From Opisthocomus hoazin (lineage: Eukaryota > Chordata > Aves > Opisthocomiformes > Opisthocomidae), in assembly GCF_030867145.1 (NCBI RefSeq), contig NC_134442.1, forward strand, positions 1,627,001 to 1,691,000: 64,000 nt of DNA, written 5' to 3'. Below are positions 1 to 30,227 of this stretch, one piece after another. The position numbers and the translations under genes are program-made. The notes beneath the pieces were generated by a model, which saw only the letters and a list, made by a program, of their open reading frames with translations, was not told the origin of the DNA and made no database searches. Within the stretch, counting starts at the first letter, position 1. Each line of letters opens with the position of its first letter.

Positions 1-1374
1 TGTGCCCGACGCCTGGCTGAGAGTGTCGCAGCTGAGAAGCTGCTACGTCAGTGGCTGGGGTTCCACGACTGCAAGAGGTGAGTTCCCAAAAGGGAGTGGT
101 GTCCTGAGCGCAGGCTGGGCACACTGGGGAGGCGGGGTGGGCTTCCTGACAGCAGAGGCGAAAGCCAGAGTCGGGCTGCGGGGTGCATGCCGATGGAGAG
201 GTGGGCCTGGCCCATTACCCCAAGCAAGACAGAAGGGAGACAGCAGCGGCACAGTGCCTCTGGAGACGCAAAGCCCAGCCCTAGGGCAGGGCTTCAGCCA
301 GACACCGGGGGGGTGGGGGGGAGGAGAGGAGAACTGGCAGCGAGCTGCTGGCTGTTAACTCCTTTCTGTGCTGACAGCTGGGGGACCAAGTTATGTCCTG
401 CAGGAGGCCAAGGTCCGCCTCATCGATATCAAGCTCTGCAACAGCAGCCGCTGGTACGGAGGGGCCATCCACAGCCACAACTTGTGTGCTGGCTATCCGC
501 AGGGCGGCATCGACACCTGCCAGGTAGGAGCGTGCTACAAGTCCACCCCCAACAGCACAGGCAGCCCTGTGGCAACCGCCCAAACCTGCCCCAGCGCGTG
601 CTTTGCCTGGCAAGTCAGCCTGCCACTGCTGGGTCCCCTCCACTCTTGGGGTTCACCTCCCCTTGCCCAGATGCAGGTCCTTGCCCAGGGCCACCCTTGT
701 CCCAGAGGCCTGGCTCTCTGCCCACAAAGCCCATCTAGTGCTCTGGGCAGCCCACAGCTCCAGAGCCCAGTCCTGCAACATCCCCCTTCCACACATCCAG
801 GATCACTGTGCAAAGAGGACAGAGAGAGAGCCCTGCCTGACTGGCCCACCACCCCCTGCCAGACAAGCTTCTGTAGGCTCCAGCACCTGAGCAGAGCCTT
901 TGTGTGCAGTCAGGACAGCTCTGGCAGCTGCTGCGGGAGAGAAGGAGCCAGCCAGAGTGCTGACCGGGGCCACCCAACACCACCTTAACCCTCTCTCCTC
1001 CGCTGCAGGGTGACAGCGGTGGTCCTCTGGTCTGCAAAGATAACACCAACGACTACTTCTGGCTTGTTGGAGTGACCAGCTGGGGGAGAGGCTGTGCCAG
1101 ACCAAACCAGCCTGGAGTCTACACCTCCACGCAGCACTTCTACGACTGGATCCTGCTACAGATGGGACTGCGCTCAGCAAGAAGAGATAGTCCAACAGCA
1201 CAGCCATGGAGTCATTTTCTCTCCACCTCAAGCCCCTCTCAGAGGCCAAGGCCAACACCAGCACCAACACAGTCGGGCAGCATTAGCTCCTGTCCATTTC
1301 CACGCCAGAAGCTGGTGGAATTCTTTACTCTTCTGAAGGAGCTCCTGCAGTTCCTCAGGGGAAAAAAGGCTTGA
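1..1374 (+). CDS. ACR: Acrosin, copy 1 (5'-truncated by window edge)
   Basis: This is the 3' part of an acrosin gene. The end of exon 3 (1-77), exon 4 (378-523) and exon 5 (1009-1374) are visible, with introns bounded by GT and AG. Exon 4 carries the WYGG...CAGYP region and the IDTCQ motif whose Asp is the trypsin S1-pocket residue. Exon 5 opens with GDSGGP, which contains the catalytic Ser, and ends with the acrosin tail, a Pro/Ser/Thr-rich stretch followed by a Leu-rich [16 protein letters not shown] helix and GKKA. An ATTAAA poly(A) signal lies at 1518-1523. Exons 1, 2 and most of exon 3 are presumed to lie left of the window. No coding differences from the other copies are seen in the visible part. 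Confidence 0.93.
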
Positions 1375-1535
1375 GGAGCAGGATCAACAGGAACCAGCGC
1401 AGGCTGCACTGGACCATGATCATTTCCTTCTGGGGCAATGCCTGCTGCTCCAAAGGCAGCCTCAGCATCAAAGGCCTGCTCTGTGCTGCCCGCTCTCCTC
1501 CCTGTGGAGGATGAAGCATTAAAGGACTGGGGACA

Positions 1536-1906
1536 TGTGAGCAATCCAGCATTTCTCTAGAAGGCCATGAAGCCTTAGCCTAAGGCCGCAGAGCCTTAGC
1601 ATAAGGCCGCAAGAGCATCCAGAGGACAAACTGCGGTTGGAATGAGGAAGTAAGAATGCAGAGACAAACAACTCCCAGATGCCGAAGAGGAACTTGCCGC
1701 CTGCAAGAAGGCCACGAGCACTGCGCGTGAGCTAGTGACGCACACCAATCATAATCGAGTTACTATGTGAGTTAAATTGATTATCACCAATGGGGGATCG
1801 CCGCGTATGTAGTGGGGAATATAAAAGTGAGCTATCTGAGGCTAATAAACGGCTTGTACGTGATCACATTGATCATCGTGTCGAGTCCGGTTCTTCCTCC
1901 GCAACA
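1536..1906 (+). mobile_element. Solo-LTR-like element, unit 1
   Basis: A 371-bp segment starts TG and ends CA. It carries a CCAAT box (CACCAATCATAATCG), a TATA box (AATATAAAAG, about 1820) and AATAAA (about 1843) only some 25 bp later. This is the compact U3-R arrangement of avian endogenous retroviral LTRs. No internal retroviral sequence or primer-binding site follows, so it would be a solo LTR. No target-site duplication is obvious, so the exact ends are inferred. A second AATAAA occurs downstream at about 1950. Confidence 0.5.
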
Positions 1907-2308
1907 CTTCCCAGTGCACACAAATGCTGAAGCTGACTTAGTTCTTGGAATAAAGTTGCCAGGTTTCACAGTTAACCGTGCCTGAGTCCAATTCACTCTC
2001 GTGCGCAAGGCAAGGATTTCCACGCCCGGCAAAATGGGGCTGCAGGCAGTCAAGGAGGGCACAAAGGGCAAGAGTCGCTCAGCAGGGCTGACACCATGGC
2101 TGGTCAGACAGGAGCGTGCTCAGAGCCACCATGGCATGAAGAAGACTGGCACATTGAGGCTAGCAAGAGGATGCAAAATAATGATGTGACATGCAGACAA
2201 CTCTGGGGATGATGATTAGGACCTGGTTGAAGCCTTTGCTAAATGGAAAGATGAAAGAAAGCTGGCAGGAGTTACAGTGCCATGAGGAAGAGCCAGATGT
2301 CACCAGAA

Positions 2309-28194: not shown

Positions 28195-28565
28195 TGTGAG
28201 CAATCCAGCATTTCTCTAGAAGGCCATGAAGCCTTAGCCTAAGGCCGCAGAGCCTTAGCATAAGGCCGCAAGAGCATCCAGAGGACAAACTGCGGTTGGA
28301 ATGAGGAAGTAAGAATGCAGAGACAAACAACTCCCAGATGCCGAAGGGGAACTTGCCGCCTGCAAGAAGGCCACGAGCACTGCGCGTGAGCTAGTGACGC
28401 ACACCAATCATAATCGAGTTACTACGTGAGTTAAATTGATTATCACCAATGGGGGATCGCCGCGTATGTAGTGGGGAATATAAAAGTGAGCTATCTGAGG
28501 CTAATAAACGGCTTGTACGTGATCACATTGATCATCGTGTCGAGTCCGGTTCTTCCTCCGCAACA
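28195..28565 (+). mobile_element. Solo-LTR-like element, unit 6
   Basis: Same position and motifs as in the other units. It shares one variant with unit 5 only. Confidence 0.5.
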
Positions 28566-28967
28566 CTTCCCAGTGCACACAAATGCTGAAGCTGACTTAG
28601 TTCTTGGAATAAAGTTGCCAGGTTTCACAGTTAACCGTGCCTGAGTCCAATTCACTCTCGTGCGCAAGGCAAGCATTTCCACGCCCGGCAAAATGGGGCT
28701 GCAGGCAGTCAAGGAGGGCACAAAGGGCAAGAGTCTCTCAGCAGGGCTGACACCATGGCTGGTCAGACAGGAGCGTGCTCAGAGCCACCATGGCATGAAG
28801 AAGACTGGCACATTGAGGCTAGCAAGAGGATGCAAAATAATGATGCGACATGCAGACAACTCTGGGGATGATGATTAGGACCTGGTTGAAGCCTTTGCTA
28901 AATGGAAAGATGAAAGAAAGCTGGCAGGAGTTACAGTGCCATGAGGAAGAGCCAGATGTCACCAGAA

Positions 28968-29952
28968 GTTAAGGGGGAATGGTGTGAGAGGTGGCCAGAC
29001 TTCAGCAATATCTGAAGGAAGAGCCGGGGTCATTCTGGGGAGAGGACTCTGGCAGGGACAGCTGTAGCCAGGAAACCACTGCAGTAATGCCACGCAAGGC
29101 CAAGATGACCTAGCTAACAGCCCCTGAAAGACCCAATCTGTTCCCAGATGTGACAGACCTGGGAGCAAGGGGGACTAGTAGGCGGGGCTAGGTCCCTTGA
29201 TTGGGAGGAGACAAGGGCAGAGAAAGTGAGGAGCCAAGGAAGTCGAGGGGGATGAATAAGTGTGGAAAATGGAGAGAAGGGGGGCTCAAGAAGCTCGTCC
29301 TTGAGCATAAGCAAAGTGCCGGTTGCTTAGCTTGTTTGGCTGAACCCTGTCCCTACTCCCCACAGCCTGTCCGACCTTCTTCTTGAGAGCCATTCCACAT
29401 CCTTTTCTGTGTGGCCCCGCTCTGTACCTGCTAGAGGGGTGGGTCTAGCGGCCTGGCTGCTGGCGATGGCAGAAGGGAACACAGGTCATAGGGACCCCGC
29501 AGTTGGAAAGACCGAGTGTCTCGCGCCAGCTCCTGGTGGGAGCGCTGTGTGCGTGCGCAGTGCACTAGCGAACCTGAAGCTGGCCTAGCTCTCGAGCAAG
29601 AGGACAGAGACCTTTTCAGTCCCGTGGGTGGCATGTGGCTGCAGCCTACCTGACTGATCAGCCCCAGCATTCACAGACCTTACAAGAGGACCAGGCCTGC
29701 CAACCACCGGCCACATCTCCACCTGCTGGAGTCAGGAAGGACTTGGAGGTGCTTGACCACGCATACCCCGAGCTGCTTCCCACCTAGGCACGTCCCCTCT
29801 GCACTACCTGTTTGGGGGCTGTGGTGATTAGGGACAGGGCTCAGCCAAACAAGCAAAGCTGTCTCTGCCAGAGTGCTCTCCCCAGAATGACCCCAGCTCT
29901 TCCTTCACATATTGCTGAAGTGTGCCCACCTCTCACACCATTCCCTCTTAAC
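28968..29952. repeat. Foldback segment, unit 6
   Basis: The inverted arms lie at about 28968-29062 and 29858-29952. The array ends about 275 bp further on. Confidence 0.7.
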
Positions 29953-30227
29953 CACCTGCAAAAATCTGCTGCTGGCATCACAGAGTATCCACAGAAGACA
30001 AGTGACGTTCTCCAAGGCCACCTTCTGCCTGCTCTAAGCAGATATCGGGCACCACCTTCAGGTCAATTTTTGAAAACCAAAGCAGCGTGGAGTGCGGTTT
30101 GTTTGGGGACGTCTTCTAGTGCCTATGAAGCCATGCTGCTTCCAATTGCACGTCTGTGGCCACGCATAGCAGGCAGTGCGACTGCCCGCACCAGTGTTGA
30201 CCCAGAAGAGCAATGTAGCTGGTAGAC

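Follow-up and report, generated by a model that had tools for sequence, protein, structure and literature searches.

The acrosin gene of the hoatzin (Opisthocomus hoazin) is present in several hundred copies in the genome assembly, and as far as places were listed, most of the placed copies are on one tiny chromosome, C29. The window, by which we mean the whole stretch of 64,000 nucleotides that was analyzed, lies at C29:1627001-1691000 (C29 is our label for the window's contig) and contains part of this array. We assign a probability of roughly 60% to the reading that an intact five-exon acrosin gene was amplified to this number by exchange and has been kept by selection on sperm. If so, repeated unequal exchange and conversion between neighboring 5.33-kb units would have raised the copy number and kept the copies alike, and duplication would also have affected bigger, mosaic units of about 9.4 to 12.2 kb, within a long pattern that recurs every 207-227 kb. 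The copies might then be retained by selection for more proacrosin per sperm (dosage) or by selection for diversity among the acrosins that act on the egg coat.

Self-alignment of the window identified a head-to-tail array on the forward strand at bases 1 to 30227, with about 5.7 units, a period of 5,332 bp (one unit has 5,331 bp), and 99.5-99.7% identity; the units differ by 0.02-0.51%. Acrosin units also lie immediately to the left of the window (stretches L011 and L012), so the tandem block extends leftward beyond it, and they resume on the right from about C29:1709048. Base 30227 is the end of one block only, and the array does not start within the window. The gene model has five exons of 71, 201, 266, 146, and 366 bp and encodes 349 residues. 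In each complete copy of the window, the reading frame starts with the ATG and spans 349 codons, and the four introns have GT/AG borders.

The forward-strand copies begin with the 3' part of a gene (1 to 1374; the rest of exon 3 plus exons 4 and 5). Five complete genes follow: U1 (4225 to 6706; exons 4225-4295, 4610-4810, 5144-5409, 5710-5855, and 6341-6706), U2 (9557 to 12038), U3 (14889 to 17370), U4 (20221 to 22701, with a 1-bp deletion in an intron), and U5 (25552 to 28033). A single site among 5,332 distinguishes the unit of U2 from that of U3. Relative to U2, the U1 protein has V6I and T94I; U5 has G72E within the CGGSL motif. The original prediction, which was made from the sequence alone, described these five complete genes and the partial one in near-identical 5.33-kb units, and the self-alignment and gene models show that its coordinates were right. 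As an inventory of the window, it overlooked a sixth complete gene, which is inverted (57291 to 59772 on the reverse strand, with N242Y relative to U2), and a reverse-strand fragment of exon 3 and intron 3 (56107 to 56284, 96-97% identical). The sixth gene lies within a unit at 56285-60395 that shares 98.8-99.0% identity with the array units; the fragment abuts this unit. The prediction also gave each copy its own promoter, introns, and poly(A) signal. The introns hold up, as does the signal: ATTAAA is downstream of all 7 acrosin stops in the window (6850 to 6855 on the forward strand, 3' of the U1 stop). For the promoter, we found only TGACATCA, which we take to be a cAMP response element-like (CRE-like) motif; it is 122 bp upstream of the ATG in 6 of 6 complete window copies (4103 to 4110, forward strand, for U1).

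The predicted protein belongs to the trypsin family (PF00089, E = 1.1e-65). The closest solved structures are acrosins, from ram (1fiw, 258.4 bits) and boar (1fiz, 242.8 bits), followed by plasma kallikrein (198.3 bits); the alignment to ram acrosin spans residues 41-309 only. The second-listed protein match is annotated as acrosin-like from Opisthocomus hoazin itself, with 100% identity across 93% of the query. The protein has the hallmarks of acrosin, namely, the His/Asp/Ser triad, the aspartate of the S1 pocket, five exons, and an R-V activation site, and we recognized a signal peptide and a short light chain by eye. Mammalian acrosins (ram 1fiw and boar 1fiz) share the S1 domain, the triad, the S1-pocket aspartate, and the R-V site with the bird protein, but copy number differs. 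Acrosin genes elsewhere also have five exons. Together, these matches support the view that the window genes encode acrosin, a sperm protease for passage through the egg coat.

We then searched the assembly that the window comes from (1.482 Gb). A 39-bp sequence from exon 5, around the catalytic serine, has 357 exact matches (329 forward and 28 reverse) and 376 matches if up to 3 mismatches are allowed (0 for the reversed control). The first 42 coding bases, in exon 1, have 293 exact matches, again with 0 for the reversed control. Thus, the original prediction was correct about the acrosin identity, the bird origin, and the multicopy state, but with six copies against 357-376 exon-5 copies in the assembly, it greatly underestimated the copy number. 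For each of the two sequences, 100 places were listed. The listed exon-5 places include 87 on C29 (0.25-1.40 Mb) and 13 on C6, C8, C10, C13, C15, and C19, and at 82 of the 87 C29 sites, an exact exon-1 match precedes exon 5 in register, by 2113-2121 bp. A search with the DNA of the whole gene placed all 40 scored matches on C29 (490 candidates), and a protein search (118 scored of 2228 candidates) found copies between 15.7 kb and 7.15 Mb of C29 as well as on C34, C54, C69, and C4. "Mostly on C29" describes these listed places rather than a full split by contig. On C34, 20 scored exon-5 matches form a second cluster, at about 204 to 431 kb. We also considered a 50-bp sequence (228 matches with at most 2 mismatches) as a marker of tandem unit junctions. 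We rejected it: it also precedes the copies on C10, C13, C15, and C19, and is therefore upstream flank.

C29 is 7.8 Mb long (7,800,965 bp) and starts with 5,000 N followed by CCCTAA telomere repeats; a stretch read near its right end has GC-rich repeats. The 86 intervals between the listed C29 places are mostly of a few sizes: 5.33 kb (38 intervals), 10.84 kb (16), 10.28 kb (11), 12.2 kb (5), 9.99 kb (5), and 20.05 kb (2). The order of the intervals repeats at 227 and 207 kb, about three times, and the number of 5.33-kb intervals varies between these repeats (runs of 10 then 3, 13, and 7). Conceivably, the assembler falsely repeated one or a few genes, which would fit both the near identity of U2 and U3 and the roughly threefold long pattern. 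This is very improbable, however: the units carry their own substitutions and indels, the long-pattern repeats differ in their numbers of 5.33-kb intervals, copies of varied divergence are found in full length or in part on at least six other contigs, and 19 of the 20 stretches read contain no N.

The original prediction also raised the possibility of sex-linked amplification, next to dosage selection and sperm competition, which we treat as hypotheses. Ampliconic testis genes are often sex linked, which would favor amplification on Z or W, perhaps related to drive. However, the four CHD1-family matches in the assembly are on C41 and C40 (the two strongest), C10, and C20, and none is on C29. 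Judging from the CHD1 family, C40 and C41 are the likely sex chromosomes (Z/W), and C29 is probably an autosomal microchromosome and not a sex chromosome. C29 also carries its own telomere. We therefore consider amplification on Z or W to be very improbable; autosomal drive lies apart from this argument.

Most of the copies whose full sequence we read appear capable of encoding a protein. The fully read set comprises 38 distinct copies, of which 6 lie within the window, another 20 are elsewhere on C29, and 12 are on C8, C10, C13, C15, and C19. (These correspond to 42 complete rows, as L001, L003, and L004 are window copies and the copy in L019 is at the same place as L007; L029 and L042, which are truncated, were excluded as incomplete, as were copies interrupted by the ends of stretches.) Thirty-five of the 38 are strictly intact, and in two others, L028 and L044, the stop comes two residues early. 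The codons for the triad (H85, D134, and S231) and for the S1-pocket aspartate (D225) are unchanged in all 38 copies, and R40, at the activation site, is retained in 37. At the protein level, there are 14 distinct sequences among the 26 C29 copies and 10 among the other 12. One of the substitutions, C13W in L030, looks like it falls within the apparent signal peptide.

Several observations weigh against the reading that the copies are kept by selection. First, some copies are damaged or suspect. L035 has a stop at codon 34; L029 and L042 are truncated; 9 of the 20 scored matches on C34 contain a TAG; and four copies have suspect substitutions, namely, R40P at the activation site (L022), C200Y (L034), G71R (L044), and G72E (U5). 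Of these, R40P and C200Y may harm function. Furthermore, outside the window most copies were reached via matches, so damaged copies are under-represented. There is also a pseudogene at C4:31170559-31171608. Since two acrosin matches lie in one 350-codon stretch there, we considered a retrocopy, but only exons 2 and 5 are matched, the frame is broken within exon 2, and there is a stop, and we therefore classify it as a deletion pseudogene. Second, the array is accompanied by other repeat-rich DNA, as would be expected if the amplification were passive. Third, two comparisons show no significant difference in variability between coding or exon sites and the remaining sites. Across U1 to U5, 5 of 1050 coding sites and 34 of 4249 other sites vary (p = 0.32), and across the C29 copies that we read, the variable sites are 37 of 1038 in exons and 70 of 1425 in introns (p = 0.11). 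(The C29 comparison has 27 rows for 26 distinct copies, as one was entered twice, which does not affect which sites vary.)

These observations bring in the main rival to the dosage reading, which is passive, satellite-like amplification: an acrosin segment became trapped in a part of a microchromosome that is prone to recombination and multiplied there, the copies bring no benefit, and the frames look intact only because the copies are young and homogenized. The tiny differences between the window array units fit this explanation, as do the lack of a significant rate difference between coding and other sites and the presence on the same chromosome of a 6,884-bp tandem element, a duplicated block (A), and a satellite at 5.0 Mb. 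We nevertheless consider it unlikely because of two comparisons that involve more-diverged copies. Between the inverted copy and U2, 3 of 1050 coding sites but 49 of 3061 other sites differ (p = 0.0003), and this deficit of coding differences indicates constraint. And the copies on C10, C13, C15, and C19 (11 copies, with L030 left out of this dispersed set), which are 93-95% identical, are nearly all intact (10 of the 11 complete ones), and among them exons are less variable (39 of 1038 sites) than introns (84 of 1425 sites; p = 0.02).

As for how the copies would stay alike, the difference between units rises with their distance along U1 to U5 (r = 0.64, with 4 of 120 orders giving a correlation as high), which is the expectation for exchange between neighbors. 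The trend is weaker if U0 is added (r = 0.49, with 36 of 720 orders as high).

Another possibility is that selection favored diversification rather than dosage, with the C29 copies and the copies on C10, C13, C15, and C19 being two subfamilies that were separated by positive selection. The fixed differences between the two sets are concentrated in exons (57 of 1038 sites, versus 15 of 1425 intron sites; p = 1e-10), and an excess is also seen with CpG sites left out, where the consensus sequences differ at 53 of 928 exon sites and 25 of 1314 intron sites. Moreover, the ratio of nonsynonymous to synonymous changes (N:S) is 46.5:10.5 for fixed differences but 41:36 within both sets (p = 0.001 from rounded counts). 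The contrast is stronger against the variants within the dispersed set (16:23; p = 6e-5) but is not significant against those within C29 (25:13; p = 0.09). Pairwise, the ratio of nonsynonymous to synonymous rates (dN/dS) between the sets is 0.79, which is below 1. Synonymous fixed differences also exceed those in introns (p of about 0.001, with a rough site count), so conversion that imported diverged exons could yield the subfamily pattern. The copies also lack independence from one another, and the rows include one C29 copy in duplicate. Overall, we find this alternative doubtful. A broader version of the dosage reading, in which much of C29 would be a megabase-scale factory for a sperm protease, with some 300 or more working acrosin genes maintained in concert to give a very high output of proacrosin and older dispersed copies positively selected into a second type, seems to us somewhat less probable than even.

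To place the hoatzin copies among other acrosins, we used a tree with 48 rows (33 of the 120 listed proteins and 15 of the 38 hoatzin copies). The 15 hoatzin acrosins form one clade (support of 100/99), and the copy on C8, where the contig ends 308 kb away, is sister to the C29 copies (95/90), with the bootstrap not fully settled. We regard C8 as a candidate for the ancestral locus. A quick tree of 79 of the 120 proteins had contained apparent ancient clades of bird acrosin paralogs, but we rejected these, as the careful 48-row tree did not resolve the forks.

The rest of the window also contains repeats. The 6,884-bp-period tandem element is represented at 29345 to 34941 on the forward strand, as 883 bp of acrosin-unit sequence followed by 30228-34941, and it recurs at C29:1719071, 1725955, and 1732839. 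Block A (51027 to 54603) is 97.8% identical to A' (60422 to 64000), which is beside the inverted acrosin unit; the block recurs at C29:700001-710000, again adjoining an acrosin unit. On the reverse strand, a reverse-transcriptase frame at 33730-34641 matches PF00078 (RVT_1, E = 6e-32) and is presumably from a CR1-type element; in a Pfam search of ten flank frames other than the gene end described next, RVT_1 was the only match above the cutoff. Four exons with splice signals (42796-41432, reverse strand) resemble the end of a HEAT-repeat gene, with PF02985 just below the Pfam cutoff; we suppose that it could be of the Maestro type (MROH). Diverged copies (86-89%) of stretches near this gene end are found at C29:1692523-1695307. 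The window also has a perfect GAGAT microsatellite (41557-41663, 21.4 copies) and two degenerate AT-rich tracts (31676-32668 and 47515-48441) that are 70% alike in inverse orientation. A search of the window against Rfam gave 0 matches. Elsewhere on C29, the stretch L025 (C29:5000001-5010000) contains a tandem satellite in which long open frames run in several phases; it is possibly pericentromeric.

The original prediction treated a single copy of acrosin as the norm in vertebrates, and published work shows that this does not hold generally. Zebra finch is reported to have seven ACR-like genes that are not clustered, with one each in chicken and human (PMC2865498); Xenopus has 14 copies of ACR (PMC3434135); and a true duplication of ACR is named in a study of false duplications by the Vertebrate Genomes Project (VGP) (PMC9516828). 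Also, in a tally of the 120 listed protein matches (of 7930), acrosin falls into two or more clusters at 90% identity in 25 of 65 taxa, and therefore bird acrosin is often multicopy, although cluster size combines different sources and isoforms and does not give gene number. One of these matches, P0001 from Falco biarmicus (547 residues), contains an acrosin domain and then the start of a second one in the portion seen, as if annotation had fused neighboring genes, which hints at tandem copies there too.

Multicopy acrosin in birds is already published; it is the scale in the hoatzin that appears to be new. The zebra finch expansion resembles that of the hoatzin as a lineage-specific multiplication of acrosin in a bird, but those seven genes are not clustered, whereas the hoatzin has 357-376 exon-5 copies and the placed ones are mostly in tandem on one microchromosome. 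Similarly, the Xenopus duplications are another case of multicopy acrosin in a vertebrate, with far fewer copies. Like the ampliconic testis families of sex chromosomes, the array contains numerous intact and almost identical copies of a gene of the male germline, arranged in both tandem and inverted blocks. Unlike those families, it lies on a microchromosome that the CHD1 test suggests is neither Z nor W, and it consists of hundreds of copies of one enzyme gene. Among the papers that our literature searches listed, we found none on hoatzin acrosin and no report of hundreds of acrosin copies in a nested microchromosomal array. To our knowledge, no vertebrate fertilization gene has such a copy number.

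Birds are polyspermic, and acrosin acts on the perivitelline layer. In mice, loss of Acr is reported to handicap sperm in the presence of other sperm (PMC6753916). If the hoatzin copies are expressed, they would offer an experiment of nature on how gene dosage affects sperm penetration in birds. They would also allow sperm competition to be tested as a driver of amplification and would exemplify the concerted evolution of a functional gene on a microchromosome. Short-read assemblies of bird genomes, which are expected to collapse such arrays, may be hiding the copy number of acrosin.

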